DNA from: Boothiomyces macroporosus
Lineage: Eukaryota > Chytridiomycota > Chytridiomycetes > Rhizophydiales > Terramycetaceae
NCBI GenBank assembly: GCA_027604185.1
Contig: JADGKB010000001.1
Span: 248,001-312,000 of the forward strand
Direction: 5' to 3'
DNA: 64,000 bases
The notes under the pieces were generated by a model. It worked only from the letters and a program-made list of their open reading frames with translations. It ran no database searches and was not told the origin of the DNA. Position 1 is the stretch's first letter; every line of letters starts with the position of its first letter. This document shows positions 502-64,000 of the stretch, one piece after another. Made by a program: the position numbers and the translations under genes.

Positions 502-1431
502 ATGCAACCTCAAGATACTGTCGGCTTTATCGGATTAGGAAATATGGGAAGTGCTATGGCGGCTAATCTCATGCAAGGTAAGTACAGCATAACCAAGGGA
601 TTGCACCAAAACCGCTCCACATTTGGAACAGAACAAAATCCAAGGCAGATGAATTAGTTAAACAAGGCGCTGTTTGGATGAATTCAATTCAAGAATTGGG
701 AAAGAAATGTAACATTATTATTTGCGTTGCATTTGACGATGCTGCCTTGAGGCAGATTATTTGCAAAGTGATTGAAGGAGGACCTCAACCAGGAACAATC
801 TTTGCCAGTTGCTCAACGATCCATCCGGATACTACCAAAGAACTTGTTCCATTGGCTTTGAAGCATGGTGTTCACTTTATGGGAACACCAGTCTTTGGAA
901 GGTAATAATAACTAACATAGACCCGATGCAGCGGCGAATAAGATGCTTGTTATGGTACTAGCAGGTCACCCAGAGGCTAAAAAGACTATTTCTCCTTATT
1001 TGATGACTATGGGAAAAGGAATTCTTGACTCTGGCGATGAAGCCCATTTGGCAAACGTTCAGAAACTTGTAGGCAACTTTTTTGTGTCGGCACTCATCGA
1101 ATTAAGTGCCGAAGCCCAAACCTTGGCAGAAAAGAATGGATTAAACAGAGAAAAGGTGGTAGAATTTGTCGATATGATGTTCCCAATCCGCACTTTTCAA
1201 GTTTACAATCGCATCATTGCCGATGAAGATTTTAGCCAAGGATTCAGCGTATCTGGCGGTTTAAAAGATGTTGGATTGATTCGGGATATAGCCCAAAAGA
1301 CAGGAACAAAAGTCCCGATTGCCGATATCACTTTTGATCACTTGTCCAAAGTTGGCCCTGAAGATAAAGACAAGGACTGGGCAGTCTTGTCAAATATCGT
1401 AAAGAAAGAGTCAAATTTGCCGACAAAATAA
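502..1431 (+). CDS. NAD(P)-dependent beta-hydroxyacid dehydrogenase (HIBADH/GLYR1 family)
   Basis: Spliced product is 296 aa, three exons (introns 578-597 and 902-920, 20 and 19 nt). The N-terminus has the Rossmann motif GFIGLGNMGSAMAANL. The substrate-side motif TPVFGRPDAAAN follows, and the catalytic lysine sits in QKLVGNF (KxxxN spacing typical of the family). Family members reduce or oxidise 3-hydroxyisobutyrate, succinic semialdehyde or glyoxylate; the exact substrate cannot be read from the sequence. The start ATG at 502 gives the Rossmann fold at residue 8, so any mitochondrial presequence is very short or absent. The next gene begins 28 nt after the stop. Confidence 0.9.
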
Positions 1432-1459
1432 AAAAGGGTTTTTTGATCTAAATTTTTTA

Positions 1460-2708
1460 ATGCGAATTAAAGTCCAAGTCGATCTCAACTCGCCATTTAA
1501 ATCTTGGTACTCAATATCCGATAGATTTCGCAAATTCTCCTCGCTCTTGGACAGCCTCTCTGCCGACTTTGGATTTGATACAAAGGATATTTCAATGACA
1601 ATGGACGGCTTTGAATTGCCTTTATTTCTGGATCCATTCTCTATCCTAAAGGAAGATGATTTAATATTGTACTATTGTGAATTGATTTAGAATATCCAGA
1701 AAACGTAATGGAAAACGCAAGATTGACGATTCTTACGTTAACACAAAGAAACACAAGTCGGAGGAGATATTGGACACCAAAAAAGAACAGGAGAGTAGGA
1801 GTGATGCGGGTGAATCCGATGAAAGCTCAGATTCGTCAGAGAGTGCATCATCAGAATCTTCTAGTGATTCTGATTCTAGCAGTTCCTCTGAAACAGATAG
1901 TGACTCTAGCTCAGATGAATCGGAAGAAACTAAAGCGGCAGAAGCCGTATTAAAAGCCGTAGATCCAAAGTTGGTCAAGACGTTGCACAAGAACAAACGA
2001 AAGGCTGTCAATAACATGCTTCATGTAAAACCATTGCATCAAAAGTTTGATCAAAATGAACCTAAAGTTTTCAATACTAAAGTGGAGCTTTTTAACGCAC
2101 CTGGAACGTTTAGTCAAAACCAAATGAAACGGCATCGTAAACTAAACAAGGAGGCAGTACCAATTGAAATGGAAGAGGATCAAGAGAATTACGAAGAGAA
2201 TCAAGAATATGAGGAAACTGAAGGTTGGGAAGAGGCTCCAAATGAAGAAACTAATGTTATTGAGGAGGATGTAAATCAAAACGAGCAGGACGATATGGAG
2301 TTAGAAGATAATAATGAGCCAAGTACGCAAGCACTTGATGCGATTGATTACAACGAATTGCCGGTTTTGAAAGAACCAAAGGAAAATGCTGAAATAGTGT
2401 ATAAGGTAACGCGTTATTTACAGTAGACTCTGGAATTATCTTTGGCATATACAGCAGAAATTAGCGATTACAAACGAGCTAGGATTTTATCGTTCATTCC
2501 AACCAAAAAGAGCTTCAAAGTTGTGCTGCAAAAACTGAATCCAGATATTCCAAAAATGCCCAGCTCTGCGTGGGAACCTAAAATTTACGACTACATCTTT
2601 CCCAAAGCTAGAAAATTCGAAATAGACCAAGATGAGCAAGATGAATCAACAGATAATACTGTAGAAGTAGATTGGAAAGACCTGATTGAAGTTAGACTAA
2701 TAAAGTAA
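1460..2708 (+). CDS. COIL: Coilin
   Basis: Spliced product is 401 aa with introns 1669-1690 (22 nt) and 21 nt near 2416-2436. The N-terminus is a ubiquitin-like coilin head (RIKVQVDLNSPFKSW, then FGFDTKDISMTMDG). It is followed by a basic stretch RKRNGKRK that looks like a nuclear localisation signal, a serine/acid-rich disordered centre, and a C-terminal Tudor-like domain with IDYNELPVLKEP, AEISDYKRARILSFIP and the closing VDWKDLIEVRLIK. The head-linker-Tudor order and the C-terminal motif match p80 coilin, the scaffold of Cajal bodies that handles snRNPs. Coilin is missing from yeasts, so its retention fits a basal lineage that splices many introns. Confidence 0.88.
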
Positions 2709-2842
2709 TGGTACCTAAAATCAACGGTAAACAGCTATGTGCCTTAAATGATGAAGTGATTTAATTTAATATTGTAAATTGTAGCATTTAGGAATCCTAA
2801 TATCGACTTTGGATAATAGCCAACAATGACGTTTTTCTAAAA

Positions 2843-3829: not shown

Positions 3830-3976
3830 ATATAATTTATTAGTTTCTAATTTCGAACCCTTCACTGATATCACGACCCATCACAATTGTTTCATTGATC
3901 TTGTTCGGTTCATGTATCTTTGTTGATTTATTCCCCAATGCCAATCCGTACAGTAGGGGCCTTGATTAATGCAAAT

Positions 3977-4331: not shown

Positions 4332-4371
4332 TTTAGTCCAAATTAATTTGCTTGAAATCAACAAAGCAAAA

Positions 4372-5591: not shown

Positions 5592-5605
5592 TAAACAATA
5601 TTGCT

Positions 5606-6887: not shown

Positions 6888-7013
6888 CTTTGAGAAAGGA
6901 ATTAAAAACGAGGCTGAGTGAATTGAGAAAGAAGTGAGGCAGTACCTTTGAAATCACTTACAATGAGGTTAAAATTGAAAATCATCTGATATCAATTTTT
7001 GCCTAATTTCCAA

Positions 7014-8286: not shown

Positions 8287-8291
8287 ATAAA

Positions 8292-15031: not shown

Positions 15032-16148
15032 ATGAACTTTTTCAAACCAAAACAAAAGTCACCAACAGAATTAGTGAAAATTACCAAAGATTCGATTTCT
15101 AAATTAGATTCCGGCGATTCCAGGAAGGTTATTTTTGTGTTAATTTCAGCTGAATGAGGAGATATCGAAAAACTTGGTTTCAATGAAAAATGTTTTGTAT
15201 GGAGATGGAGGTACTCTTTCTATTTAATCAAGAAAACGATCCAATTCCGGAATTAGTTACTCAGCTTTCTACGGAAATTATCAACACCGATTTATTGGTA
15301 ATTTTAGTCCAGAATATCCAACTGTTGGAATTCGAAGCAAAGAAGGATGTTGCGCAGATTTTTAATAATTTGCTCCGCAGACAATTAGGCACTCGATTTC
15401 CTACCGCAGATTACATTGGTGGGAAGCCAGAGGTGTTAATGTCGTTGATTGGAGGATACGAAAAGCAGGATATTTCTCTGAATTGCGGTATGATACTCAG
15501 AGAGAGTTTAAGACATGAACTTTTAGCAAAGATAATCATAGAGTCACCTCAATTCTGGAATTTCTTTCAATACGTTGAACTCTCCACTTTTGACGTTGCA
15601 TCTGATGCTTTCGCAACTTTCAAGGATTGCTTAACCAAGCACAAATCTCTTGTAGTTGGATTTCTCGAAGCACATTACGATCAAGTATTTTGATTTTCAT
15701 TCTAGTTTTTTGAAAAATACAATGCGTTGTTGAACTCATCAAACTATGTTACCAAGAGACAGAGCTTAAAGGTAATCTTTAGCTAATTCAGTTACTGGGC
15801 GAGCTATTACTGGATCGCAACAACTATTCGATCATGCTAAAGTACATTGCCAGTCCAGACAATCTCAGGCTGATGATGAACCTGTTGCGGGAAAAGAGCA
15901 AAAATATCCAATTTGAAGCATTCCATGTATTTAAGGTATTCATTTGTTAACCAGATATTTATTGCCAACCCTCAAAAAACAAAGCCCATACTTGATATCT
16001 TGTACAAAAACAAAGATCGTTTGATCACCTTTTTGAGTAATTTCCACAATGACAAGGCGGGTAAACTGGTTTTAAGATAGACGACGAACACTTTAACGAT
16101 GAAAAGGTATTCTTGATCAACCAAATATCGGAATTAAAGGCTCCATAA
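15032..16148 (+). CDS. CAB39: MO25/CAB39 scaffold protein
   Basis: Seven exons joined by six introns of 22, 22, 21, 20, 19 and 20 nt make 330 aa. The protein starts [16 protein letters not shown] and reads [59 protein letters not shown] and [20 protein letters not shown], the diagnostic Mo25 blocks of an armadillo-like helical repeat protein. MO25 activates STE20/LKB1-family kinases and in fungi acts in the cell-morphogenesis (RAM/MOR) network. Frame is maintained across all six splices, which makes this gene a strong calibration set for the local intron rules. Confidence 0.95.
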
Positions 16149-16427
16149 ACGCTTGTAGAATTTCAATTTTTTCTTATGCCATATAATTAAAATAATAGAT
16201 GGTGACGTAGGGCCATTGTTGAGCGTGCAACGGAATCAACCTATCGAGGGAGAGCATTGGCGTGCCGAATAATCGATCGCAACATTGCTATCGCGATTAT
16301 CGATTTATCAATCTCTCTTTTTATTGTTTGATTGACGATTCTGAATTATTCTGGTTCAGAAGTGTGACGCGGCTTCGCTTGTAGAAATGAAAACGCCTTT
16401 TTACTTTTGCTAATCTATATTTGAATC

Positions 16428-16850
16428 ATGTCTTGGCAAGCATACGTTGATACCAACCTTGTTGGAACTGGAAAAATCGCAAGAGCTGCAATTTACGGCC
16501 ACGATGGATCTCTCTGGGCTACCTCTAAAGGATTCAATGTACCCTGGCACTAATGATAGGTCTCATCTACTGAAATCCAAGGAATCCTCGCCGCTTTCAA
16601 AGATGCAACTGCTATCCGTGCTAATGGACTTTTGGTTGGAGGAATCAAGCATATCGCTATCCGCGCTGACGAACGTAGTGTTTATGGTAAAAAGGTACGA
16701 GTATTCTGATTGCAGGGCACTGGTGGTGTATGTTGCGTAAAAACCAAGCAAGCAATCCTCATCGCCATGTATGAAGAACCTGTTCAATTTGGAGAAGCAA
16801 CCAAGGTTGTTGAAGCACTTGCTGATTACTTGATTAGCGTCAACTATTAA
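16428..16850 (+). CDS. PFN: Profilin
   Basis: Three exons with 21-nt introns at 16539-16559 and 16695-16715 give 126 aa, the usual profilin length. It begins [20 protein letters not shown] and continues [39 protein letters not shown] and [20 protein letters not shown]. The N-terminal WQAYVD and the C-terminal helix ([14 protein letters not shown]) are the poly-proline-binding face. Profilin binds G-actin and feeds formin/WAVE-driven polymerisation, which pairs with the CYFIP gene elsewhere in the window. No single frame shows the whole gene, so simple ORF calling misses it. Confidence 0.95.
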
Positions 16851-19343: not shown

Positions 19344-19846
19344 TTAAATTGGTTTAATCTTGAAATGTAGGGAAATTAAAGAGAATACCAAGCACTTCAA
19401 GTCCTGAATCAAGTAGTAAAAGACCCTTAGCCCTTCTGGGTCTTTACTGTTTTGTACATCTGCAAGTGATCCTATTTTAGACGTCTACCATCAAATCAGA
19501 ATTACAGTGAATGAAATATGCTCATCGCCTAAAACAATTTCCAGCTCTTGTCTACCAACTCTATCTGGTTCCGGCTTGATTAATAACGGTTACCCATTGA
19601 GAATCATCTTCCTTCAATATTTCACTCTCTTCAATAATCCTTTTCAGTTCTTCCATTAGCGTAGCTGAAACATAAACTTCCTTTTTGATCAGTGTGTCGT
19701 TCTTGTAGTTGCTGTTGTTTGCGTATCTCAGGTTCCCGTCCGGTCTAAACTCAAATTCAAGAAATTCATGGCCAAACTTTCCCATATGTCCCACACTATA
19801 TTAATGATTTTTACTAGTAGCGAACGTAAAATTCTTCAAGAGCCAT
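19344..19846 (-). CDS. MAGOH: Mago nashi, exon junction complex core subunit
   Basis: Four exons, introns of 19, 19 and 21 nt, 147 aa. The protein reads [80 protein letters not shown] and [15 protein letters not shown], almost identical to metazoan MAGOH. With Y14 it locks eIF4A3 onto spliced mRNA. Its strong conservation fixes each splice site: the third intron (GTAATT...GGTAG) must be 21 nt to restore TTSKIGSL. Presence of an EJC subunit fits the very high intron load here. Confidence 0.97.
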
Positions 19847-20111
19847 TGGAGATTCAGATCAGAAAAAAACACAAGCTGAAAAGTGTTTGGAGAGTGTTTG
19901 ATAAAATTATTAAGAAATAATCAATACAGATTTAGAGTTGCTATTAAACTTCAAGTTACTTGATCTGTAAACTTTAATTTGAATATAAATACCCACAATA
20001 AACTGCAATTTATTCAAATCAGATATCCAAATTGGTCATTCTATAGAAATGTTTGTTAAATGCTCAAATTCATGTTTTTGTGAGTCAGAAAAAAAGTTTT
20101 ACAAAATCAAA

Positions 20112-21275
20112 ATGTCGGTTATTAACATTCGTCGTGATGTATCAGATAAATTCTACCGTTACAAGATGCCTAAAGTACTCGAATTTAACCCTAGTTGATT
20201 TCAAAGATTGAAGGTAAAGGGAACGGTATCAAAACTGTGATTGTCAACATGTCGGAAATCGCAAAGGCTTTAAGCAGACCTCCAGCTTACCCAACTAAAT
20301 ACTTTGGATTCGAATTGGGTACTCAAGTGAAATTGGATGAAAAGAATGACAGATATGTGATCAATGGTGCCCATAATGCTGATAGTTTACAAGATATTCT
20401 TGATGGATTCATTGACAAGTTTGTACTGTGTGCCTCATGCAAGAACCCAGAAACTGAATTTGTACTTTTTGATTTAACCTAGACCTTTACCAAGGATGAT
20501 ATTTTGAAAGATTGTAAAGCATGTGGTGCACATTTGCCTGTGGATATGAGACATAAATTGACTTCATACATCATGAAAAACAAACCGGCCGAGAAAAAGT
20601 AATTATTGTTAACTTAGGGATAAATATTCAAAAGTAAAAGACAAGGCTGCTGATGCAGAAGAAGAAGGAATGCAGGTTGATGATGAATTGGAAAAAGAAT
20701 TGGCTGCATTACCAACCGCTGAACAACATGGTGTTGATGATGACTGGGCTGTTGATACCAGTGCTGACGCAGTCGCTGCTCGTGTTAAAGACCTTGGTAT
20801 TTCAGAATCTGCTTTGGATGGTGACTTGAAGGATCCTGTTGAAGAATTTGCAGACTTTTTAACACCAGATTTGTCCGATGAAGATATAATTGCTAAAGCG
20901 GAAGAGCTAGAAGTCAGGGAAGACAAAGTCTGCGCCGTATTACCTCAAGTATTCCTGAACGAAAAAGTACTGCAAGATAAGCAAATTGAAGCAAGATTAA
21001 ACCTTTTCAAGGCTTTCCTAAAGAATGAGAAATGCCAAAAAGGTTTGTTGGGCGGTATTGAGCGGTTGGTTGGAATCAACCACCCCGAATTACTTCCTCG
21101 CGTTTCGTTGATTTTCAAAGTACTGTATTTTGAAGATTTGGTTGACGAAGAAGTATTCTTGAGTTGGTCTGAAAAAGCATCCAAAAAGTATGTCGACAAA
21201 AAGATTAGTGTCAAAATCAGAGAAGCTGCAGCTCCATTTATTACTTGGCTAAAAGAAGCTGAAGAAGAAGAATAA
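20112..21275 (+). CDS. EIF5: Translation initiation factor eIF5
   Basis: Four exons (introns 20, 21 and 19 nt) give 367 aa. The N-terminal GAP domain starts [20 protein letters not shown] and has [19 protein letters not shown] and the Arg finger region near residue 15. A zinc ribbon follows (CASC and CKAC). After an acidic linker comes a C-terminal W2/HEAT domain with [36 protein letters not shown] and the closing acidic/aromatic box ending EEEE. eIF5 stimulates GTP hydrolysis by eIF2 at start-codon recognition. Confidence 0.96.
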
Positions 21276-21320: not shown

Positions 21321-22595
<1,275 letters not shown>

Positions 22596-29467: not shown

Positions 29468-30628
29468 ATGAGAATTACAATCACGACTGAAGACGGCCAA
29501 ATCCACACACTGGATGTAGATCAAGATATGGAGATTTTGAATTTAAAAGCTTTAATTGAAGCTGATATGCAATTCTCCACTACCAGCCAGCAGTTGTATC
29601 ACAATGGCAACTTGCTGTCCAACGACAAGGCAACGATCAGGAATGCGGGAATAGCTCAAGATGATATTTTACTGGTTCGAATTCTGGCCCAAGCTATAAG
29701 CCAAGCGGAGCAGGTCAGAAGAAGAATTTTGGCTGATCCAACATTACGCTTCCAAATGATTCAAGTAAGATTGAATTCACCTTAGCAATATCCACCAATG
29801 GAACAAGCTTTAAACAACCCGCAGCAGTTTGAAAGGATATTTAATGAAATGCAAAGACAAGCCCAAATGCAGAGACAGGCTATTAGTGTTAGTGACGATC
29901 CTTTTGATATCGAGTCACAAAGACGGATCGAAGAAGAAATCCGAAAGCAGAATATACAACAAAATCTAGGAGTAAAAATTGTTAATTTAGAATGCAATGG
30001 AGCATCATCCGGAATCATTTGGACGTGTAATCATGTTGTACATAAATGTCACGGTTAATGGGCATCCAGTTAAAGCCTTTGTTGACTCTGGTGCCCAAGC
30101 AACTATTATGAGTCCAGAATGCGCTGAAAAATGTCATGTTATGCATTTGCTGGATGATAGGTAGTTAATTTTTAATTGCAGATTCGCTGGCATTGCAAAA
30201 GGAGTGGGAACCGCAAAGATTCTAGGGAGAATCCACAGTACGCAAATTAAAGTTGGAAATCAGTTTCTACACTGTTCATTGACTGTAATGGAAGGAAAGG
30301 ATGTGGATTTACTGTTTGGACTTGATATGTTGAAAAGGCATCAAGTAATTTTCATTAACTGAAGGCATGCATTGATCTTGAAAAAAATGTACTTCGAATC
30401 AATGGAGAAGAAGTACCGTTTTTGTCTGAACATGAATTGCCAGATAAAGCTAAAGAACCCCTCCCAAAAGACCAGACACCAGAATCCTCTCAACCACCAC
30501 CATCAAAATATCCTGAAGAGGTGATCAAGAATTTAGTGGCATTAGGCGTTAGTCGAGAGGAAGTAATTTCTGCATTGGATGCTGCTGGAGGGAATCCGGA
30601 CGTTGCTGCTGGACTACTGTTTCAGTAA
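29468..30628 (+). CDS. DDI1: DDI1-like proteasomal shuttle aspartic protease
   Basis: Five exons with introns of 21, 19, 21 and 20 nt give 359 aa. Domains in order: ubiquitin-like ([20 protein letters not shown]), a helical linker, the retropepsin-like protease with active-site [12 protein letters not shown] and the flap region [36 protein letters not shown], and a C-terminal UBA domain ([20 protein letters not shown]). The DSGA catalytic triad is intact. DDI1 cleaves heavily ubiquitinated proteins and escorts others to the proteasome. This is a cellular family, not a retroviral remnant. Confidence 0.96.
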
Positions 30629-30667: not shown

Positions 30668-32305
30668 TTATCCAATATGGGCGCCTTTAAGGGACTTGAC
30701 AGTAACAGGGCCATCACTAGTTTTGAATGGAACACCCTTGTACAAGGCAATGCATTCTTCAGAGGTGATAAAGTCAACTGCGACTTTTTCAAAAATCTTG
30801 TGCTTCGGATTAAGAACAGCATCTGGTTGAGAGTGGAAACCTTCAAAAGTAATTGCTTCTCCGATTATTGAATCTTCTGCTGGTTCCAGCAACTCAACAA
30901 CTGTTTTGTCACTGTTGGAAGCAGCTAAAACCATACCTTCTGATAGCACCCCGGCAAATTTAGCAGGCTTCAAGTTTGATGCGACCACCACCAATTTTCC
31001 AGTGAATTCTTCCTTTGAGACGAATTGCGCTAGCCCACTTACAATTGTTCTTGGTCCTGTTTCTTCTCCCAAATCTATTTTCTCTACATACAAGTTCTAG
31101 TTTAAAGATAAAATACCTCACGCTCTGGATGCGATTCAACACTCAAGACCTTTCCAACACGGAGGTCAAGTCTAGAGACTTCAGTGGTGATCTTAGGAAC
31201 TGGTGGAGGATATGCTTCCAAAGTTAGTTTTTGTAGTTCTTTGCTTTCCTCCCAGATTTTTCTAATTGGTTCGAGCAGCTTATTTAGTGCGACTGCAGTG
31301 GCAGCCTTCAAATCTCCTGGATGTAATTCCTTGTTTTCAAATGCTTTTTCCAAATCATCATAAGTACCGTAAGCAACGTTCCCGCCGAATTTCTCTGGTC
31401 TTGTAACTTCAAATTTATATTCATGGCCGCCTAAAGTATTGACAGGGAAAATTACTGCCTTGACGAAGGCTAACAAAGGATTGTCAACAATGTTACCTTC
31501 TTCACAGAACGCCTTCTTTAATTTGTTTGCAACAGACTCTGCGGAATCTAAGAGATCGACCTTTGAGTCAGGATCTGAGGAGCTCATTTTGGAGCCACTC
31601 AATCCCCCAACCATGGCATTCATTAAATGAGATCGCTTTTTGTATCCCAACACTGGCAGGTACTTTTCTGCGAACGTAAAGATTTTTCTCTGGTCAACCC
31701 CACCAAATTGGCAATCAACATCAAGATATTCTTCGTCCAATGCCTGTAATAACGGATAAATCAATCCAGAAAGTAACGGCGAATCAACTTGCTTCACTAC
31801 TTCTGCACCGGCTTTCTTGGCATCTCTTACGGAGGTGATAGCAGTTAGGCGATAGACATCCAGAGTGTACTTTTCAGATAACTACCAATTAATATCAATT
31901 ACTTGAAAAGACGTTCCAAACACAAACTTCAACTTTTCAATTGGCACTCCAATTGAAGTAAGCATAGCCTTGATGACAGCTTCATAATACTTTGCACGTA
32001 ATTTCAGCAAAGACCATGGTGCTTTCATGTTGTCCAAATATGCATGTAAATCAGCAAAGAGAATAGTTACATGGCATCCAGCTTGCAGCAAATCAGCGAT
32101 TTTTGCCATTGGCACAAAGTAGCCTGCAATTAATACAACTTACCAATATGAGGCTTCCCAGTAGTAGCGGTTCCCCAGTATACATTCAAGTCCCTTTCCG
32201 CCAAGACTTCCTTAATACGATCGCCTCCTAAATATTCTTGTAAATTTCTGGTAATCAGTTCAAATCTGAGTGAAAATTGAATTACTTTTGCTCTGGAGTT
32301 TGCAT
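30668..32305 (-). CDS. YARS1: Cytosolic tyrosyl-tRNA synthetase with EMAPII domain
   Basis: Five exons (introns 20, 20, 21 and 20 nt) give 518 aa. The class I core has [20 protein letters not shown] (HIGH-type motif, split by an intron), [37 protein letters not shown] and [18 protein letters not shown] (KMSKS motif). A C-terminal EMAPII-like tRNA-binding domain begins [18 protein letters not shown] and ends [10 protein letters not shown]. The fused EMAPII domain is the metazoan-type architecture; most fungal TyrRS lack it. The true start is the ATG at 32305 (MQTPEQK), spliced to [13 protein letters not shown]. Confidence 0.96.
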
Positions 32306-32355: not shown

Positions 32356-34062
32356 ATGACTCAGATTAATCTCACACCAAGGGCAGGAACAGTATTGGAT
32401 TTCAATGATAATGGTGCCGTTCAAGAGTAATATGCGCTGACCCAAGGGAATATAATCCAAATAATACGTTGCGCAGGAATTTGGAATTAATTCAAATGGA
32501 GAGGGATCGGGGAAGGGAAGATGATCATACGCAAACGGCGGTGGAAAAGATTAAAGAGATTATATTGTAATTTTGAGTTGATACAGTTACGCGAGGGAAG
32601 AAATGCAAATCACATTTGATATAGCATCCAGGTTGGTCACCAGCCAAGCTCTCGAACCGTCAGCGTTGGAGAAATCAGAAGATCCCCATTTGAAGACTTG
32701 TGTTGGCGCAAAGGCTCCACAAGCTCCTCCCATGGTTCAACTTCAAAAAGCGCAGTACATTGAAGCCATCAAAAATCAAGTTGTTTATCATTAACTTAGA
32801 ATATTGATTCATTTGTACAATTTCTAGTTGAGAATGTGGCAAATATTTCCAAGATGGTTGAAACTTCCCAAAAGTTTTTCATGGAACTGGCATTTGACCT
32901 CCTGAAAAGGAACTGGGTCTTGCAGGAAAGAAATTGGAGCCCTATCAAAGGGATTCTATTTGTTATATATGGATTCGTAAATGGTACTAGTGCTTTAAAA
33001 CATTAGATGGTTCCCGTTTGCCTGAAGTTGGTGAGGCAGATATCTGGAGACTTACTTTATCCTCAGATACTAGTGAAAATGAGGGTTTTGATGTGATTTG
33101 TAATCATAGTACCCCGCTAATAACAGTATTGAAGTTGATTCCGTCAGCAGATGTAAATATCTTGGACTGGGGGAATCCTTTGGTAGAAAGTAATTCTTCG
33201 TCTGTAATCAAGAAGCTTCAACTAGCGCGAAACTCAATTTTCGAAAAGGATTTATTTGGTCAAGTATCCAGGCTTAATGTTAGATATTGTCCGATATTTC
33301 ACAAAACGAAAAGCTGTTCAAGAAATGTATCATTACTTCAAAAAAAATTGTCATACCTTTGCTGGAAAATTTCAATTTACAGGTTACCTTGGAGAAAGCT
33401 GAAGATGTGCATTATGAATTTACAGGTCCCCCTGATGCAAAGAGTTATATTCAACTATTAGCCAGGATGGGGCTACGGGATATTCATCGACAAAACCTGG
33501 ACGTGCCAATGAAGAAATTGCCAATGAACTTGACTACCAAATTGAAAAAATATTTGGAGAAACAACTGCTGGCTGAAAAGATTAATACCCTATTTACCAC
33601 TGTAGAAGAATTGCTATTGAATTGCTCAAGTGCACGCTTAACGCGAACAGCGACCGAGTGGAAACTTTCTTTTGATTTGGACGGCATCCGAGAGATATTT
33701 ATATCCTGTAGAATATCTGACCATACACGAATTTATTATATCTCATCTCAAACTCAAATGCTTGAAATATTCTCTGTTGCATATCTGGAAGAACTTTTGA
33801 CGTCGTTCGTAATCAAACATCTGTTTGACACTGTAGTTGAGGTATCAAACTGTTTGTTCCAAAGAGTTGTAATAGGGGATGGCCAAGTTGTAAGGGTAGA
33901 TCAGAGGTGATTTAATTTTAAAGTAGAAATATTTCTGTTGTTGGAGATAAGGTAGCGAATATCGCTGTGAAGGTGCAAAACGGAGCAGAGTCCAAGCTAT
34001 ATAGAGTGGCAGAAATGTCAGAGTCTTTCCAGGTAGAGGTAGTAAGGTTCCTTGTAAATTGA
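32356..34062 (+). CDS. MED17: Mediator complex subunit 17
   Basis: Seven exons with introns of 20, 20, 20, 23, 20 and 20 nt make 527 aa in one continuous frame. Recognised blocks: [20 protein letters not shown] (the Mediator head stretch), [40 protein letters not shown] and [20 protein letters not shown], the last resembling the MED17 segment that precedes the conserved C-terminal region. MED17 (Srb4) is the architectural centre of the Mediator head module and contacts RNA polymerase II. Similarity is spread thinly, as usual for this family. Confidence 0.82.
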
Positions 34063-34105: not shown

Positions 34106-36729
34106 ATGGAAAATTCAATCAAAGAACTAATGAAAATGGAAAACTTTAAGAGTAAAGACTACTCTCCAAAAGAATTGGTCGAGGCCGCAAATAAAAAGAC
34201 AGTTACAGATTTGAAAGGAATTGGTAAGCAACAAATAACAAAGCATTTGACCCAAAGCCATTTATCAGATCTTTTGAGGCCCTCACAGAAGAGCTGCTTC
34301 GTTTGAAAAGAAAGTTGCAAAACAAGATAGAGGATCAAGAGGATCAATTAACAGCTTCTGAAAATTCCAAACGCAAAGCATTTTCAGAGTTCAACGAGAC
34401 ATTTGATGTACATAGTTATTGACAAGTAGGAAGTTAATAGGTCATTTGAATACCTGAATTCGCGATTAAGCGAAGTTGGAAACACTGCAATTAGAATAGG
34501 TTACGCGATTCTAAATGTAGGAGAGCAGCTGGAAACTATAGACAAGCATCGAACACGAGCGTCTGAATCAAAAGACATTATCCAATATTTTTTAGAGTTC
34601 AACAAAGGATCGTTTGCACGGCTGGATGCTTTGCGGATGGAAAGTCTAGAAGGTGAAAGAAAGGTAAGCTTCGCCCAATTTTAGACTGCGATAATTGCAC
34701 GACGACTTAATACTATTGCCAAAGAAATTGATATTGGCGGAATCGACAACGTAACTAATATGTAAACTTAGGCAAGAGCCAATATTGAAAAGTATTGCGA
34801 AAACTTTGAAAAAAGCTTACTTCAAAAGTTTGACCAGGTCTACAGCAGTGCGGATAGAGATACCATGAATGTAATTCACTTTAATTTCAGCATATTGCTA
34901 ATACGTTGATTGATTTTAATGGCGGGAATTCATGTGTTCAAACTTATGTGAATCAACATGCCTTTTTCATCAACATTCTAAAACTGGCAGAAACTGATAC
35001 TGAAAATCTAGGGGAGACGTACGATTGAATTAATTTTAGGACATGGGAAAATCAGAAACTGGGTGCCTTGCAAAGACTATATGACGAAATCCGACAAGCG
35101 GTTTCATCTGAATGGGATATTATCTATGATGTATTTCCCAATGCTATAAATGTAATACAGGTATTCGTCCAAAGAATATTCGCTCAATCCATTCAAAATT
35201 TCCTGGAGGTTTTGATGCAAGAGGCTTCCTTTAAATCATCTCAAATTTACTTGCAAGTACTAACCAAATCTCATAAAGAAACCTCGGATTTGGTTTCGGA
35301 TTTGCGAAACTTTGACGAAACTTACATACTTCCTTTAACTGGGACACTAGCGCTAGGAAGTATATTGGACAGATCATTCGAGGATTTGTATATTCCATAT
35401 ATAAATGATGAGAAATATATGAAAATAGAAAAGTCTTGGTTAGTTGAAACGTTCAACGCTGCAATGGAGTCGTTTGACGGTAAAATGGTATTCTGCTTTA
35501 ACAAAGGAATCTGCTCAAAAAAGAAAGAATGCAGGTAAATCAAATGCAAAGCAGGTATCAAATCCAAAAGAATCAAGTGTTTTCGTTAGCTCATTGCTTA
35601 GCACAGTTACAACAATGACATCGGAAATAAAGCAGCAATTGGCAACCCCTACTTCTAACGTGCCCCCACCACTTGACGAATCAAAGCCGTTGCCAACTAT
35701 TAGTATTTGTTTAAAGTGCATTGAATCCAATTTGATGTCAATGGAAAGGGCAAAAGAACTTTTTCACGAAACGGAATTGTAACTACCATATGACGTTAGA
35801 GCAGAATCAATTGCGATATTGTTCAAACTATTTTTGGAAAGAATTGGAGAGCGATATCTATTTTACTCCCTTGATAGGTTTTTAGTCGTTGATCTAGTAC
35901 CATAGAAGAAATATCTTCACTGGACTCTAAAAGCCAGCCTGAAATTGGAATTTTGGGAGTGGTAAAAGTAGCAAACGAAATCACCCAGCTTGTTAATCTT
36001 CATTACCAAAATTGCGAAGTACGATCCTATTAATATAGGGACACGTACTGAAAAACTCTCTGACAATACATAGAGATCTAAATATTGCAAAGAACGACTT
36101 TTGTAGTAATGTTGAAAACAAAATCAACTCAATTATGCAAAAGCAATTGGCCGGTAATTGATTGTTAACCGCAGCTAATTTAAATTGGATAGAAGGCATC
36201 CTAGCTAAGCAGAAAAAGTCCGATTACAACATGAAAGATGGACTGCTGGGCAATACCATTCCAACTCAAACCAGTAATCAAATTATAGAGTTTTTGAGAA
36301 GACTTTCAGGAGAGGCGTTTGAATTCCTAGATGAAGGGAATAGAGATCTATACCTGACTGAGATTGGAACCTCATTATGCAAGTAATTATTTTTTAACTT
36401 TGATTGCTATTGGACCATATTAAAAAATTCCAATTCACTTACAGTGGAGGGCTCATTTTATCAACGTGAATAGATCTTAACTTAGTGATATAACCAGGTA
36501 CCACGAAGTTGTCATTCAGTTCCGTGTAGAAAACTTGGATGAATATTTCAATGTTTTGAAGGAACTATGCAACCTGTATATTGTAAAGCCTGAAAATTTG
36601 CGAATGGTCCTTCAAGAAGGATATTTGGGTAGAATGGAGCTACCTGTTCTGCATTCATACATTAGCTTACGGGCAGACTGGTCCAAATTGGGTAAGCTTG
36701 AAAAGGATTTATTTTACAATACTCAATAG
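34106..36729 (+). CDS. SEC10/EXOC5: Exocyst complex subunit SEC10
   Basis: Fourteen exons with thirteen introns of 19-22 nt give 785 aa. Blocks: GIAFDPKPFIRSFEALTEEL, ADRDTMNHIANTLIDFNGGN, SCVQTYVNQHAFFINILKLA, FDETYILPLTGTLALGSILD and the C-terminal CKLLLDHIKKFQFTYSGGLI, LSTDITRYHEVVIQF. These match the Sec10 pfam order. The exocyst tethers secretory vesicles at the plasma membrane. The intron at 36383-36402 appears to end in TTTG rather than AG; a 20-nt excision is required to restore the conserved LLLDHIKKF block and the overall frame. The stop lies 3 nt from the stop of convergent SEC66. Confidence 0.93.
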
Positions 36730-36732
36730 AAT

Positions 36733-37405
36733 TTATTTCTTTCCCTTTTTCTTTTGTTTCTTTTCCTTTTCTTCCTCTTCAATCAATTCACGGGCAATTC
36801 GTTCCCTTTCTGCTTGCTCATCCAATGGTTGTTTTTCAGATGATTGCTCTTGCTGTTGTGCTTCCATATTTTGCTGTTGTGCTTCCATACTTTGCTGTTC
36901 CTGTTGGGCAGCTTGCTGCATCTTCATCTGTACTAATTGAGAAACTTCTTGTAAAAAGCTAGCACTCCAGTTTGGCTTGTATAAATTGGATTCCTCCATG
37001 AGCTACTATGAGATGAACATTACCTCTTGCATTTCCAGTTCGATTTCTGCTTCCGCTGCCAACAGCTTCTCCCATAACCCTTCGTTTACTATTCCTTCCT
37101 TGACCATTCCTTGCAAAGGTGGTTTTTCATCTCTAATCCGTAACACTCGAGTGACAGCCTCTACTGCTCTCTTTAGCAGTGCCGCAACAAGAACTTTCTT
37201 TCCAGTAGAGTCATCTGGAGAGTACTGCTCTGCCAATTCCTCGTATTCAAACTTTGCTCTGTTCAATGGGAAATATCCAGCTTCTGTACATCAGCGACTG
37301 CTTACCTACTTTTTTGGACTTTGATTTGATAAATCGACCCACAAAGAACAGTAATCCAAACAATCCTCCTACATAGAATACAGGGAATAAAATTGACAGA
37401 TTCAT
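36733..37405 (-). CDS. SEC66: SEC66/SEC71-like ER translocation subunit
   Basis: Three exons (introns 22 and 21 nt) give 209 aa, close to yeast Sec66. One N-terminal membrane anchor (ILFPVFYVGGLFGLLFFVGRF) is followed by KKVEAGYFPLNRAKFEYEEL, VLVAALLKRAVEAVTRVLRI, GMVKEGIVNEGLWEKLLAAE and ELMEESNLYKPNWSASFLQE, the family blocks. The C-terminus is a long Gln/Glu-rich helix ending in poly-basic KKQKKKGKK. Sec66 with Sec62/63/72 drives post-translational import into the ER and is characteristic of fungi. Confidence 0.85.
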
Positions 37406-55586: not shown

Positions 55587-55602
55587 TATATCATTTATCT
55601 AT

Positions 55603-56537: not shown

Positions 56538-56594
56538 TGATAAAAAGTTAAAAATCGCCACATGGAAGATCAGAGTCAAAACTAAAAGAAATCT

Positions 56595-59500
56595 CTATTG
56601 AATTAAACTGGTGCCTAAAAACGACTTTGTTTCCTCGTTCAATCTGCTAAACCAAAGAGCGTTTTGAAGATGAAGATGGATATCATTCCTCTTCTCGTCG
56701 TTTTCTAACTGAGGTAGTATCTTGCCATTTAGATCAATAAGAGAAAACAAGTTTGCCTGTCCACTTGCAAATAAAAGTGAAGTGAAGGCGATTGGTAATC
56801 CATCACCAAATAGCTCCCTTCAATAAGCTCCCTATTACCTTATGGTACGGTCCCCAGAGACAGCTGGGGTAGACGCAGCAAATTGCAGTATTGAGCATAC
56901 TTTTGCACATGATCTGTCACTCGCAACAATTTCTGGCTTTTTCCATTCTGGAATGGTTTTAAGACTGGCTCCAATCTTGGAAAACAGGGCTTTGAAAAAC
57001 ACTGGTTTCCTGCGTATTCTACGAGAATACTCAATTGACTCTTTAACCCAGTCCTTGTAGGCATACTGTTGGACAGCAGGGTTTAATTGCTCGTCCAATT
57101 CAGAAACTTGGGACAAAAAGCAAGAATCATTTTCTGTCATTAGGCAACAATTACCATCAGAAATTATATCCCTGACACTCAAGGAGGTAAAAGTCGCGTC
57201 AGAGGCCTAAAATAAATGATAAAATACAAGCGTTTCTTCAACGATCTTTGAAAGCATTATTCCATTTCCAACTTCCCTAAACGCTTGCAGTATCTCACTC
57301 TTTAGCTCTTTGTAATGGAGTAACCTATGATAACTCTGTAAAAGACTGTCATATTTTTCAATGTTAGCAAAAATTTACCAGATGCCGTTCCGCTTGAAGG
57401 AATCGTAATTGGCAGTGGAGCTAATTCATCAACGCTGAGGAAAAATTTGGACATTGTATGATCCAACTGTAATTAATATGCAGTTACAATCAACTTGATG
57501 TGGTTTGAAATTTCACTTATTATTACACTTAGACCCTCAACACCAACCATATTTGAAATAGCGTTAAAATGGGAAGTTCCAATACTGTCCTTGAACACAC
57601 CAAATTTCATAGTGAATTCAATTGACAGGCCCTAAATATGAAATAGAAATCACCTTTGTGCCGTAAAGATACATCAACTTTGCGTTAGGGAAGTGAGGTC
57701 TCTGTACTGGTTCAGCATAAAAGACTGAACTTTTTACAAATTTCATACTTGTATTGTTGAAACAGTAGTTTGGAATTATATCACGAATAATTTCTTGGGT
57801 GATGTGCGTAAGAATTCTTCCATTTGTCTCACCAGGTGTAACGCATTCATTAATTTCTTTTAGGAGCTCTTCAAAAGGCTCCAAATCCAGATGTTCAGAC
57901 AAAAGTAAGTGAGTTAAACGAGAGGATTCAAGTAAACATTCAAACTCCTACAGTTAGGCGTAATTACTGGAATGTAGGTTAAATCACTGGCTTCCAGTCT
58001 CGAAATTGCAGTGTCAATACTGTGCCGCAAGTATTGGTCCATCATTTGAGATAGGATTTTCGAAACATCCACAGTTCTACCCAATAGCTAACTTAAGGGT
58101 TCAAAGTACCTTTATCGTGCGCTGTTTCAACGCACTAACATAAGCATCTGCCTGAAGTCCTTCTTGACTCCACACAGCTTTCCCTCCTTCCTGAATTGCC
58201 ACCTTGTTGTCTGTATCCAAAATCTGAGTTGATGCCAACTTTTTATAATGGCGAAAAACATTTCGCCCAAGCTTAAACATGAATTGATCAAAGCACAGGT
58301 TTACCTGAATTTAATAAAATTTACCTCTGCTTCAACCTCGTTGTAAATATATCGGCTTTTTAAACTGTTCAGCGTTTTAAATCCAGCGTCATTGTATAAA
58401 TCTAAAGGTATAAAAATATTTTGCAATACGCTTGTTTCGTGCGATTCTAAGCCATATTCAGTCAATATCCACGGCAAGGAGGTGCTTGTGGGGAACTATC
58501 GATTAGCCATACTATTGCCTGGACTTGTCTAGTTAGCTCCAAGTAAAACTCCTTAAACCACAAGTTGGACAGATCGGAGCAATCTGCAATTGTTTCTAGA
58601 GTTAACGTTCTTTACTTTTGATATTCATCATCAGCGGATAATAATGACTATCGTCGAAAAATTTTTGCAATTCTGTTACTTGACTTTCTTTGAAATTCTT
58701 TTCTTTCATCATCCCTCCTTTCATTCCTTTGGATTTCTCATTGAAAATTAAGTCTAATAAAGCTCTAGAAAAGAACAGCTAAACGTAAAGTTGAACTAAC
58801 CTGGCTGAGCGAAATGGGGTCAGCTCGAACAACTGTTTCGTTATTGTCAGATAGAGCGTCTTGTACGCTTTTGAGAATACTACTTTAATTCAGAATTACC
58901 TAACGATGGGTTTCTTTTTCTTTGCTGCATGGTTGTAAATGTCTGTTAATGATCCTTTGGCAAACAGCTGAATTTCGTTTCCAATATGACTATCAATCAT
59001 TGGCTGCAACAATGGCTCCATGGTGTACAAAAGTGAGCTCAAACTTTTGATCATGGCAATATATTCGATTAAAACTTTCTTTTCTTCGTGATTATAGTTA
59101 TGTTGAACGGCCTGTATTAGCAGATTTTACTTGCTCGTAAATTTCGGTGAGTTGAACCCCGGAAGCAGATTTCGCTGGGTTCAAATACTTCCAGGCTGCC
59201 TGAATTAGCTCAGTTTACCTGTTCCAGAACACGAGTTGTCAGTTGCGATAACAAATTCAAACCATTATAAGCAGCGTTATAAACTTCACGTGTTTCTTCC
59301 AAACTTACCGCTTGGTGAATAAGCTATAGTTAAATTGCAAAAACCTTCACATGAAAACGTTTCAATTGAAGATATACGGATTCATAATTCATTTTCGCAG
59401 TTTCAATCTGATTTGATAAGAGGTAAGCCTTTGTTATTTCAATTCGTAATTCTTCATCTAAATTCTTAATATCCAGTTTTGAGTGTGGCCAATGGGGAGC

Positions 59501-60620
59501 CTTTGCCAAAATACTGGCAATTGAGATGGCGATATCACCAAAAAGAGGGACAACAGCAGTGGTCTAGATTACCGAGGTGTTACTCTAAACAATTTGATTA
59601 GCCTTTCAGGCTTAATCTTCTTTTTCTTTACAAAATCCATGTCATCCCCCTCCCCGTCAATCAAAAAGATGGCGAAAGCAATTGCCTATGTTAGAATGAA
59701 CGGCTACCCTAACATATATGTGTTTAGTATTTGGCGTCAGGTAGTGTCCCTTTTCAATGAAATCTGCACACATATTGATCATGTCCAAGAATATTTCCTC
59801 ATAAAAGCTATTCATAGTTGATAGGGCTTTTTTCAAGTCGTTTGCAAAGTGGTCCTTGTTTGCCAAAAAGAAAACGAGCTTTGGTAATATTGCAAATTCA
59901 GGATCTGATTGGTCCTTCACCAATACAGACTTTGCTCTTTTGTACATTGATAAATCGTTGCTCATTGACCCTTTAAAGTTTTTCATCACATCAATGCTAA
60001 CAGTCAAGTCGAGCAAATTGGCAAGAGTAATCAGAAATGCCTCAGAGGGGAAAAAGTCTCTGTCCTTCACGTCTGGAATGAGTCCAGTAAGAGATTCAGA
60101 GAATGCCGCTATTAGTTTATCCCTGAATTGCATCAAATCCACCATTCTTCCAATTTCTGGATTCAGGACTGCGCAAGTTTGATGGTAGAGTAACTCTTTG
60201 TTTGCTTGATCATGGCTTTGAACCTGTCATTTTAATTTTGTATTACTTGCGGTATAGCTTTCCCACAACTCCTGAATGCGTACAAAGTATTTACCAATGC
60301 TCTTCCTTCTTCCAAAACAGAATTCTACAATTAGTATATTCTACAATTCGAGAAATGTATTGAGCTTCTTTTTGAAAGTATTTGTGCGCTGCTACAGAAG
60401 TCTTTTCTGCCTTTACATCCAAGTATTGCGCTTGATCGAAATAGGATTTGTCTGCAAGATTCAGATTGACCAATGATTCCGTGAATACGGATTGAAAAGG
60501 AGCATTAATATCTGGAGAATCATGAGCAATGCTGATGGCTCGTAATTCCTTTGCTGTATTTAACACTTCCATGGACGCGTTTGGATTTTGAGTAATTAAA
60601 CTTCGACAAAAGCGCGCCAT
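56595..60620 (-). CDS. CYFIP1: CYFIP/SRA1, WAVE regulatory complex subunit
   Basis: Many exons on the minus strand from MARFCRSLITQNPNASMEVL to a stop at 56595. Recognised blocks: MVDLMQFRDKLIAAFSESL, FFPSEAFLITLANLLDLTVS, MKNFKGSMSNDLSMYKRAKS, VLVKDQSDPEFAILPKLVFF, LANKDHFANDLKK, GHYLTPNTKH, the core IIPNYCFNNTSMKFVKSSVF, NAKLMYLYGTK and the C-terminal RELFGDGLPIAFTSLLFASG. This is the CYFIP (PIR121/SRA1) order. The protein links Rac to Arp2/3 activation through WAVE. The N-terminus appears shorter than in animals. The central exons (57.2-59.6 kb) were not fully spliced by eye. Confidence 0.9.
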
Positions 60621-60627
60621 TCAAAAA

Positions 60628-61778
60628 ATGACAGTCAACATAAAGTACGATCATTTCTAACCATTTAGCGATGAAGTAAACTTTCTGTGCGGTCCGCCAA
60701 AGAAATACGCCCAGCGTTCAACAATCCAACATTGGCAATTGCGAGACTTGGTGTTGTGTCCCACAGTGAAAACGCAATTTCTCTATGTAAATCAAAATAC
60801 TGTCAACTTTTATGACACAATAACCCAAACTGTATGCGCATGATTAATATAGACATCTCCAGCCATAAAAGATCTTTCGTTTTCTCCGACTTCGATTACT
60901 TCAGGGTAGAGATTAATTAACGATCTGGTATGGCTACCTTGCAGCCGGAGGACAGCGCTCGCAGCTTTTGGTGAGGAAGCTGAACTCTGATTGGTATTTA
61001 TCAGCTCATCAAAGGTTTTCAGTTTTGAATGTTGGCGGTTCCATCAACAATGCTCTATGTATATCCAAACACAATAATCAGACTCGCATCTTAATATGTA
61101 ATAATGACGAAACAATCAAAGTTTATTCACTTCCTGATTTACAAAGAATTACCAGCATATCATTCCCAACTGCAGTCAATTATGCAGCAGTTAGCCCTGA
61201 CGGGAAGAAAATGATAGCAGTGGGGGATAGCTCCCAGGTATTCTTGTATAACATTACAAGTAATGGAGATTATGAAAAAGTTGCTGCTATGACAGGCAAG
61301 TACTTGTTAACTCAGCTTCGAATGATGCCGGGTTCAGCTGCGCATGGAATCAAACATCCGAAAAATTTGCAGTAGCTAGTCAAGATGGATATGTTAGTGT
61401 GTGGGATATTCGTAGCAGCGAGAAGCTCACTAAAATCGCGACCAATCAAAACCCCCAGGTTAAAGGTGCTTGTAGATGCGTCAAATTCTCACAATCGGGT
61501 TCAATGGATTTACTTGCCTTTACTGAGGTGATTTTCATTTGATTTTAGCATGTTTCCTATGTTAGCTTAGTCGATGCAAGGACATTCAACGATAGACAGG
61601 CAATTAGGGTCTCTCCCATTGGAAGCGACCAACATATTTCTGGTATGGCGTTTTCTCCAGACAGTCAATCACTGTTTGTTGGTATTTTCAAGCTAACACA
61701 GGACTGGAACACAGCATGCTGCAATTTGATATCGACACTATCAGACGAAGAAGTTTTCCTGAAGGGTCTCTCATATAG
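60628..61778 (+). CDS. WD40 protein, DUF2415-like
   Basis: Seven exons give 340 aa in continuous frame (introns 24, 21, 22, 20, 21 and 20 nt). Blocks: MTVNINDEVNFLCGPPKKYA, GYLAAGGQRSQLLVRKLNSD, LICNNDETIKVYSLPDLQRI, VNYAAVSPDGKKMIAVGDSS, FAVASQDGYVSVWDIRSSEK, and LFVGLEHSMLQFDIDTIRRR. This resembles fungal WD40 proteins with a DUF2415 insert. The second half keeps the RRRSFPEGSLI end. One intron (60906-60927) appears to end in TG and another (61296-61315) is GC-AG. The start codon is 7 nt from that of CYFIP. Confidence 0.75.
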
Positions 61779-61857
61779 AAATAAAAATATACTGCTTGAA
61801 TGTTTTAATCGTGACGTAACTGTTGAAATTTGAACGCGATCAATTTCTACTTATCAA

Positions 61858-64000
61858 ATGACAGGAAATTTATTTGGTGAATTAGAATTAGGGTATTTTT
61901 TATTAATCTAGCAAATCATATGGATATAGCAAAGATGTTCGAGCGAAGATTGTCAGAGGAAATTTGGTTTTCTACGCTTCAGGATCTTGCATTAATGTTG
62001 TAGAATGTATGAATTACAATATTAGCGAATCCCAAGTACTGCATGGTTATCGTATTGTTGGAGAATGTCCAAGTGAGATGCATGTTAAAGTGGTCGCAGC
62101 TGATCAACCGATAACTGCATTTGCCATTCATCCAAAGGAAAATACCATCGCTTACTCTGAAAGACATTCAAAATGCATAAAGATAGTAAAATGGTCCCAA
62201 GTTTCTGGAATAGTGACGAATATCGCGAGATTAGAATGTAAGGATGTACTAACACAGCACCTGCTGATTTATCAATCTGTCTTCTTAGTTTCTCTGCAGA
62301 CGGCTTATATTTGGCAGCAGCAGGCGATATACCATCACATCAGATTAATGTGTGGGACTGGCGAGCTCAAAAACTTCTCGCTTCAAAGGAAAATGGTGGA
62401 CCTGCCAATTTCCTTTCTTTCAATCCTCTAGATTCAAAGCAATTCTGTACCTCAGGGGGCAATGGAGATATTAGATTTTGGAAAATCAAAATTGGATTCA
62501 AGAAATATGTTTTGACAAATATGTAAGCAGCAAGCTAATCAAAGTGAAGGAAAAAAGAATCCAAATCCTTCGTTTGGGTCTGAAAGTTATCAATCAAGAT
62601 TTAACCAAGTATCATGGACAGATAATAGTGTTGCTGAGCTCAGCGAAGATTTATCCTTCAAGATTTCGCAACATGTTTGGGCTCCAGAAAAAAAGGTATA
62701 CTGCAGTGAAATATCTGGCGGAATATTATACAAATACAGCGCTGATACTGGAAGCTATGAAACTGTCTTTGATGTTGAAAGGCTAGCTGCCTTGTATCCG
62801 AAAGAAAATTTCAATAGTTCCATCCTTAAAAATATAGCAATATACTCCAAAGGTATAATAACTGGGGGAACAGTATTTATGTTTTAATGCCAGGATGGCT
62901 ATCTTTATTATTTCAGCTTCAAAGGAGATTTTGTTAAAAGCGTCAAAGTTACCAATGGAAATCCAATTTTAGCAATAACCAACTCGCCTGATTACTCCAG
63001 ATTACTAATTGAAGTATCTGACGGTAAGCTTCTGCTCCACCAAATTGCAAATGAAACTACAATAATGGTAGCCTTCTTTAATGTTAGGCAAGACACAACA
63101 ACTACGAGGGAATCAATGGCTTCGGAATATTCAATATAGAACCAATCATGGTCTCTACTCACCATAACGGAGTGGTATATTTGAGAGATATTGAAAAGAA
63201 CACTATTATCCAAAGTTTAGCTACCAATACTGTAATAACTGCAATGGCAACATCCTTGGTTTCAATGCTTTTTGCATTGGGATCCAATGCCGGTGTAGTG
63301 AGGATTTATTCGGTAAACCCTCAGGGAAAAGAGCCAAAACTGATCTACCGGAAAAAAGTCCATAAAAATGCTGTAACCAAGGTATATAAATACTAATTAG
63401 CTTTCTTTCGACGGGACAGGAAAGTTTTTGGCATCTGGATCTGATGATCGCCAAATTTGGATTTTTGAAGTTGCAAGCAGTTTTAAAGCAATTGGCTATA
63501 TAAACTACCTCGGAACTTTTAAAAGTTTACGTTGGGAAGTTGTGGAGGAGCTCGAGCAGCAGGTAAGCTTGCTTAATGCTAGTCTTCTAAACTCTTTGTT
63601 CTTACAGAGGAGGGCGATTCCAGCTCAAGCAGCATCACAGTATATGAATTATCTTTTACTTCACCAATCCCAGTATTATCCGAAGAAGATAGTAAAATTC
63701 AACGAAGCGCTATTCCTGTATTTCCATTTTAACATAGCACTGGAGTTTTAAAATTGATGCAGAGGGGCAAGATATATTTGTGGGCTCAAGGTTTCTTGAA
63801 TCTAAAGTAGACAGCTGAACGCTGGAAAGGAAACCATATTGATATTTTGCAAAGACAAAAAAATACGCACCTACAACGCCCTATGTTCAGGACAACAGGC
63901 TGCTGAAAAACTTCTTCTTTCCCCATTGGCAGAAGAGGTAAAAATAGCCATTAATTTAGTACAAGGAACACCAAGGAGATTGTGTTCAATTTTATTCGTC
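61858..64000 (+). CDS. CFAP43/CFAP44-like flagellar WD40 protein, 5' part
   Basis: The gene begins MTGNLFGELEL, splices over a 19-nt intron to GKSYGYSKDVRAKIVRGNLV, and runs off the window. Propeller segments: ITAFAIHPKENTIAYSERHS, AAGDIPSHQINVWDWRAQKL, FLSFNPLDSKQFCTSGGNGD, IRFWKIK, and further VVYLRDIEKNTIIQSLAT and SGSDDRQIWIFEVASSF. GDIPSHQINVWDW matches the G.PD..I.VWNW block of the CFAP43/44 (FAP43/FAP44) pair, the tether complex that holds inner dynein arm f in axonemes. The two members cannot be separated from this piece. Exon junctions after 62.0 kb are only partly resolved. Confidence 0.72.

Follow-up and report, generated by a model that had tools for sequence, protein, structure and literature searches.

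We report that protein-coding genes of Boothiomyces macroporosus, a chytrid of the Terramycetaceae (Rhizophydiales, Chytridiomycota), are interrupted by large numbers of ultra-short introns, apparently spliceosomal and among the shortest on record, most of them 19-23 nucleotides (nt) long. The study centres on a 64,000-nt stretch (in the following, the window), which covers positions 248001-312000 of a 400,918-base contig (JADGKB010000001.1) from a 15.2 Mb genome in 216 contigs. Together with positions 1-210000 of a second contig (C2) and four further 10-kb samples, 314 kb or ~2% of the genome were analysed. Judged from sequence and homology, the ultra-short introns are real in these 314 kb, and very probably they occur genome-wide. 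In all probability, they are ordinary U2-type introns, reduced to a near-uniform length of 19-23 nt and handled by a conventional spliceosome via intron definition. The observed part of this explanation comprises the intron lengths, their architecture, positions shared with relatives, and the small nuclear RNAs (snRNAs) and splicing factors of the genome.

Intron lengths in the window and on a second contig

The length signal is visible without any gene model. Within the window, the bare motif GTA..TAAC..AG is found 26 times at 20 nt, compared to 2.3 +/- 1.2 in 30 Markov simulations, and 8 times at 19 nt (2.5 in the simulations). That is, motif counts that are independent of any gene model peak at 20 nt.

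Introns were called with a Viterbi gene finder that combines codon scores with splice-signal matrices. We used a length prior that is flat from 14 to 120 nt, i.e., no length was imposed, with splice matrices trained on calls of 17-24 nt. The finder's penalties were adjusted by hand before the flat-prior run on the window and again slightly (two penalties) before the run on C2:1-210000, where the matrices were those trained on the window only. For the window, this results in 165 introns within 31 gene models, among which 124 are 19-23 nt long (19 nt: 21; 20 nt: 59; 21 nt: 26; 22 nt: 14; 23 nt: 4), and every other length occurs at most twice. For C2, 285/377 introns fall into the same range. Both the window and the independent 210 kb show a sharp peak at 19-22 nt with mode 20, such that the gene-finder calls stay clear of a mode well above 25 nt, which would have contradicted the original prediction for this DNA.

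The final finder is length-aware (85% of the length prior is placed on the peak), was trained on the window and C2, and allows for GC donors and TG acceptors. It yields 663 introns in the 314 kb with both median and mode at 20 nt; 611 are 19-23 nt and 615 are 17-24 nt long. Respective counts are 100 (19 nt), 258 (20 nt), 154 (21 nt), 83 (22 nt) and 16 (23 nt). If ultra-short introns are defined by a mode no higher than about 25 nt, those of the sampled 314 kb belong to this class. They are spread over 119 intron-bearing genes (score of at least 15) with 2.97 introns per kb of coding sequence; scaling this density naively to the genome would give some 32,000 introns. Within the window, 163/175 introns are in the range of 19-23 nt, and eight further introns in RPT6 and DDI1, missed by the final run, were modelled separately. 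The initial estimate of about 100 window introns, nearly all of 19-23 nt, is thus borne out. Longer introns exist as well, e.g., one of 46 nt in ISY1 outside the window, whereas some apparent introns of 35-115 nt more plausibly combine a tiny intron with an exon.

Intron architecture and spliceosome components

Each intron consists of little more than its signals, namely a GTAATT-like start, a short AT-rich spacer, (C/T)TAA(C/T), another 2-3 nt and the terminal AG. The third base is an A in 89% and the base preceding AG a T in 61% of 592 introns of 17-26 nt. A TAAC, TAAT, TGAC or TGAT site is present in 472/611 introns of 19-23 nt. For 403 of these 472, the branch A is located at intron position 14 (158), 15 (192) or 16 (53), and in 371 it lies 5 nt (185) or 6 nt (186) before the last base. 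Intron GC content is 30%. Among 614 introns of 18-24 nt, 592 show GT-AG ends, 9 GC-AG, 12 GT-TG and one GC-TG. Between branch site and AG, there is no space for a polypyrimidine tract, and the 3' splice sites are therefore probably set largely by their distance to the branch point. Given these positions, the lariat loop would measure about 14-16 nt, and the intron lengths may lie near the steric limit.

In Paramecium, stop-less introns are avoided at lengths of 3n. In contrast to this pattern, no selection was detected at the 21-nt introns of Boothiomyces, where 110/154 contain an in-frame stop compared to 108 expected from phase shuffling; the test is weak, since false calls may concentrate in that length class.

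With regard to the machinery, snRNA genes for U1, two U2 and one U6 were identified in the genome. The U1 5' end reads AUACUUACCUG, U2 carries GUAGUA and U6 carries ACAGAGA. The two U2 genes (L032, L033) are divergent in sequence, and both exceed the Rfam cut-off with an identical branch-binding motif. U2AF2 was found as well, with three RRM stretches and with five introns of 19-21 nt of its own; its exon-wise score is below the NCBIfam cut-off. Two equal RNA-binding matches are located on contig C20. The SF1 domain is present as well. For Cwc25, MGGGDLNLKKSWHP is found at a start codon, aligned there without gaps to human CWC25, such that the N-terminal glycine motif (the plug) is intact; in the finder's model, the start lies upstream of MGGGDLNLKKSWHP. 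The Cwc25 locus is found on two contigs (C49 and C100; L035, L036) with identical gene models and an equal match score. This doubling, like the C20 matches, possibly reflects uncollapsed haplotypes or recent duplications. Overall, the machinery looks ordinary in the parts tested.

The spliceosomal nature of the introns put forward initially is thus supported by GT-AG ends, a branch site complementary to U2, positions common to relatives (see below) and canonical U1, U2 and U6, all of which point to U2-type splicing. One could imagine instead that the intervals are DNA segments eliminated before expression (cf. the internal eliminated sequences of ciliates) or are skipped by translational bypass, i.e., that RNA splicing is not involved. 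Their shortness, AT-richness and near-uniform length would suit such a process. Nevertheless, we regard it as barely conceivable: the intervals are bounded by GT-AG and hold a branch site that is complementary to the canonical U2 of the same genome, the host is a fungus, and the deposited CYFIP models of relatives treat most of the intervals as introns. Under the spliceosomal explanation, as sequence and homology suggest, the 19-23 nt intervals would be removed from the mRNA, most likely by intron definition, and would have shrunk from longer introns.

Reconstructed proteins and their relatives

All nine genes named in the original prediction (MAGOH, RPT6, YARS1, eIF5, DDI1, MO25, SEC10, MED17 and profilin) were found, each with Pfam or solved-structure matches. 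MAGOH (19344..19846, minus strand; introns 19485-19505, 19575-19593 and 19796-19814; PF02792 1-142/142) aligns without any gap to the human MAGOH chain of a solved structure over residues 4-147. RPT6 (proteasome subunit 8; 21321..22595, minus strand), which was reconstructed separately with four introns of 21, 19, 19 and 22 nt, aligns with subunit 8 of a solved 26S structure across residues 6-397, apart from a single 2-residue difference within a glycine-rich run. MO25 (CAB39; 15032..16148, plus strand; PF08569 2-332/332) has six introns (15128-15149, 15211-15232, 15685-15705, 15772-15791, 15936-15954, 16061-16080) and can be aligned with the solved structure of human CAB39 over residues 6-330 with a single 5-residue gap. 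MAGOH, MO25 and profilin (16428..16850, plus strand; introns 16539-16559 and 16695-16715, 21 nt each; PF00235 1-127/127) match their Pfam profiles over practically the full length. As reconstructed, MAGOH, RPT6, MO25 and most of CYFIP are in register with known proteins.

Pfam matches were also obtained for the remaining genes. On the plus strand, these are eIF5 (20049..21275; introns 20175-20194, 20462-20482, 20599-20617; PF01873, PF02020), DDI1 (29468..30628; introns of 21, 19, 21 and 20 nt; PF09668 1-109/109 plus a ubiquitin domain), MED17 (32356..34062; eight introns of 20-27 nt; PF10156, a weaker match of 42 bits), a SEC10-containing model (34106..37324; introns mostly 19-22 nt; PF07393 1-630/637 in one stretch once the TG-ending intron described below is spliced) and a 3-hydroxyisobutyrate dehydrogenase-like gene (502..1431; introns 578-597 of 20 nt and 902-920 of 19 nt; PF03446, profile 1-156 of 161, and PF14833). 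YARS1, a tyrosyl-tRNA synthetase with an EMAPII-like tail, is encoded on the minus strand (30668..32305; introns 31097-31116, 31882-31902, 32124-32143, 32266-32285; PF00579, PF01588). SEC10 proper ends near 36.7 kb; the 3' part of its model is unreliable, with an unconvincing read-through tail, and is probably overlapped by a separate minus-strand gene at 36951-37405.

The suspected fungal-grade nuclear genome does belong to a true fungus. The highest-identity named matches of arginine kinase, MO25 and CYFIP come from Terramyces, Globomyces and Boothiomyces, i.e., from Rhizophydiales. For MO25, Boothiomyces sp. JEL0838 is the best named match (100% identity across 83% of the query) among the 120 matches listed, which do not include B. 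macroporosus itself. For arginine kinase, the matches listed include Terramyces (86% over two thirds), Globomyces (79-81%) and a 74% paralogue of B. macroporosus itself. The arginine kinase gene (42969-45254) is intron-free and encodes a tandem two-domain protein of 761 residues. The genome shows 47 Zn(2)Cys(6) matches, which fits a fungus, and a genome search without positive control found no nuclear-receptor (zf-C4) match.

Deposited proteins of relatives provide information on intron positions. MO25 of Terramyces sp. JEL0728 carries the additional residues VRVTNK (18 nt) at intron 5 and GNFGLNI (21 nt) at intron 6. In CYFIP of Boothiomyces sp. JEL0866, KAIPQ is followed by 8 additional residues (24 nt) and SLSQ by 7 (21 nt). 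For Terramyces, CYFIP shows insertions of 7 residues at the B. macroporosus intron at residue 590 and at residue 992; the latter amounts to 8 when compared to the B. macroporosus protein, in which one residue less is present at this point than in those of Globomyces and Batrachochytrium. All six insertions (6-8 residues, 18-24 nt) are located at intron positions of B. macroporosus, each is confined to one aligned protein, and by our reading (not computed) each can be back-translated to GT...AG, as if an intron had been translated. They form a biased sample, since only stop-free lengths divisible by three can surface. Given these translated insertions in JEL0866 and Terramyces, the trait spans two genera. 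The deposited proteins of Globomyces and Batrachochytrium are uninterrupted across most junctions, which says nothing about the lengths of their introns.

The relatives also bear on the origin of the introns. Fixed-length copies of one recently mobile intron family, i.e., introner-like elements rather than shrunken old introns, would be expected to resemble each other. A small excess of such pairs exists: 20 introns have a neighbour at 1-2 mismatches, compared to about 10 in column-shuffled sets. Yet the nearest-neighbour test did not reveal many near-identical copies. The nearest neighbour is typically 4-5 mismatches away in about 20 positions, i.e., most introns share little beyond their signals, and the six positions are common to Terramyces or JEL0866 although sequences and lengths differ. 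We thus consider an introner-like origin quite improbable and keep to shrinkage of older introns.

The CYFIP gene (WAVE complex; 56548..60572, minus strand) allowed for the closest inspection of individual calls. The model is 98% identical in alignment to the deposited B. macroporosus CYFIP. By our reading, relatives back 18 of the 22 introns of the first model, while two calls are mis-bounded and two false. One mis-bounded call relates to the possible 17-nt introns of the original prediction, which did not hold up in this case: the 17-nt GT-AG call is better explained by a 23-nt GC-AG intron (58496..58518, minus strand), whose removal yields the junction QVQ|FPTSTSL common to JEL0866 and Terramyces. 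The other would in fact comprise an exon and a putative 20-nt GT-TG intron (57359..57378, minus strand), and this reading restores a 17-residue stretch matching CYFIP of JEL0866 and Terramyces. The stretch is absent from the deposited JEL0838 protein as well, and this speaks against an error in the sequencing of a single assembly. Several exons are skipped in the deposited model of B. macroporosus CYFIP, and a deposited JEL0838 protein (HDV04_001399) fuses MO25 and profilin, i.e., the two genes at 15032-16850. It follows that some public gene models are wrong at tiny introns.

Finally, we collected the observations that weigh against shrunken U2-type introns and a conventional spliceosome. The two false CYFIP introns (both 21 nt; positions 605 and 1026) are translated in every relative. 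The MO25 gap sits close to the first intron, and the 2-residue difference of RPT6 falls at the third. The tail of longer introns is real, since the 46-nt ISY1 intron keeps a gapless alignment with human ISY1; the first 42 residues of the ISY1 model, whose first exon is uncertain, do not align with the human protein. U1 scores 68.8 bits and is thereby 0.7 bit short of the Rfam cut-off (69.5), and a genome search without positive control did not find U5. In addition, the finder makes false calls. We scored decoy dinucleotide pairs identically to GT-AG on C2:1-140000 and obtained 10 (GA-AG), 5 (CT-AG), 9 (GT-AC) and 22 (GT-TG) calls of 18-24 nt, where the highest count, GT-TG, may partly represent real introns.

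Taken to the extreme, such calls, together with the 2/22 CYFIP introns that are exon, would mean that a finder or reader in search of open frames merely bridges frameshifts, sequencing errors or decayed genes. This is contradicted by the GT-AG count, which reaches 187 at 18-24 nt in the same 140 kb, while decoy calls are mostly 25-120 nt long (156-188 per decoy run vs. 53 for GT-AG). Furthermore, the motif counts obtained without gene models show the same 20-nt peak, the reconstructed proteins are conserved, and relatives are interrupted at the same positions. We therefore hold an artefact to be very improbable and continue with genuine introns.

Non-canonical splice sites, known systems and implications

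Alternative splice dinucleotides were evaluated as well. In a scan of 15 non-AG acceptors, TG is strongest with a model score gain of 72.6 and 8 introns of strict architecture. AC gains 19.6 (one strict intron) and the remaining 13 lose score; strict introns number 5 for TC and 4 each for AA, GA and TT. With regard to donors, the decoy GA gains 41.4 with 6 strict introns, while GC loses 34.0 with 5. GC donors as a class are thus not above GA decoys under strict architecture. Given 41.4 for this decoy and only 39.2 for the model that allows GC and TG together, a score gain alone is modest evidence.

Homology adds to the case for TG. Splicing a 20-nt GT-TG intron from SEC10 (36383..36402, plus strand) raises the Pfam score from 401.7 bits in two stretches to 471.1 bits in one. 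Two GT-TG introns, those of CYFIP and SEC10, hence appear to be homology-supported. A 22-nt candidate in a WD40/DUF2415 gene (60906..60927, plus strand) shows strict architecture, with a Pfam comparison that is uninformative for the junction. Further TG-ending candidates are located at 10800-10819 and 45482-45503; a further strict one, at 13149-13167, lies directly next to another predicted intron and is in doubt. The window holds 6 strict GT-TG cases and the other 250 kb hold 2, a clear imbalance given the sizes of the two samples.

For both the CYFIP and the SEC10 intron, TG follows 5 nt after the branch A and the next AG is at least 13 nt beyond TG, which suggests that the 3' splice site is chosen according to distance. 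Whether a ruler of about 5-6 nt, measured from the branch A, is the main determinant of the site instead of AG scanning, such that a TG at the right distance replaces a farther AG, is a speculative and rather unlikely generalization. If true, a conventional spliceosome could handle introns of 19-20 nt, and AG would be partly dispensable.

As far as the accessible parts of the cited sources go, the likening of these introns to those of Stentor and of chlorarachniophyte nucleomorphs, made at the outset, is fair, and mikrocytids should be added. Introns of Stentor coeruleus are 15-16 nt long genome-wide with the branch A at position 10 or 11 (PMC9505925). Both systems are genome-wide, near-uniform, AT-rich and GT-AG bounded, with conserved U6/U2 recognition motifs and a fixed branch A. 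They differ in that Boothiomyces introns measure 19-23 nt, place the branch A at 14-16 and follow a clear branch consensus (TAA[CT]), while Stentor shows no strong one. Moreover, Stentor Cwc25 is reportedly without the N-terminal glycine motif, proposed to avoid a steric clash (PMC9505925), whereas Boothiomyces keeps it along with a predicted loop of 14-16 nt. The more than 800 chlorarachniophyte nucleomorph introns (18-21 nt, about 300 genes; PMC10245619) cover nearly the same length range, but reside in a relict endosymbiont nucleus, in contrast to a full 15.2 Mb nuclear genome. Mikrocytid introns (16-17 nt; PMC10245619) share the very narrow length range and conserved signals; compared to the 224 annotated introns and strongly reduced spliceosome of Mikrocytos, the 314 kb of Boothiomyces contain 663 introns, and the few spliceosome parts tested give no hint of reduction. 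Dicyemids (median 27 nt, about 5 per gene, about a third at least 30 bp; PMC6543705) likewise combine an opisthokont with short introns genome-wide, but are animal parasites. Paramecium and Nyctotherus (about 25 nt; PMC5014332) also have tiny introns genome-wide.

Ultra-short introns are thus already known elsewhere, with 15-16 nt given for heterotrich ciliates in general; new is the unexpected lineage, a true fungus. Our literature search, conducted mostly outside subscription journals, found no description of introns this short for any chytrid, and the accessible parts of a survey of 644 genomes (PMC8476143) name no fungus with them. As far as could be found, introns near 20 nt have apparently not been described before in a fungus. 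The trait could be old and general in Rhizophydiales or chytrids, i.e., an overlooked ordinary property of the group. Terramyces, interrupted at the same positions, speaks for this, while the accessible parts of the survey, whose intron-density table includes just two chytrid species, mention no introns so short; we consider such generality possible, though short of probable.

On the practical side, the fused gene, skipped exons and translated introns among the few deposited chytrid proteins examined serve as a warning. A culture collection of zoosporic fungi exists that names Boothiomyces (PMC7537106), and splicing assays may therefore be practical. With Boothiomyces, an independent lineage and true fungus joins the few organisms with genome-wide introns near 20 nt. 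Since the Cwc25 motif is intact alongside a predicted loop of 14-16 nt, its loss is evidently not needed at that loop size. The organism thus lets minimum intron size be studied with a conventional-looking spliceosome.

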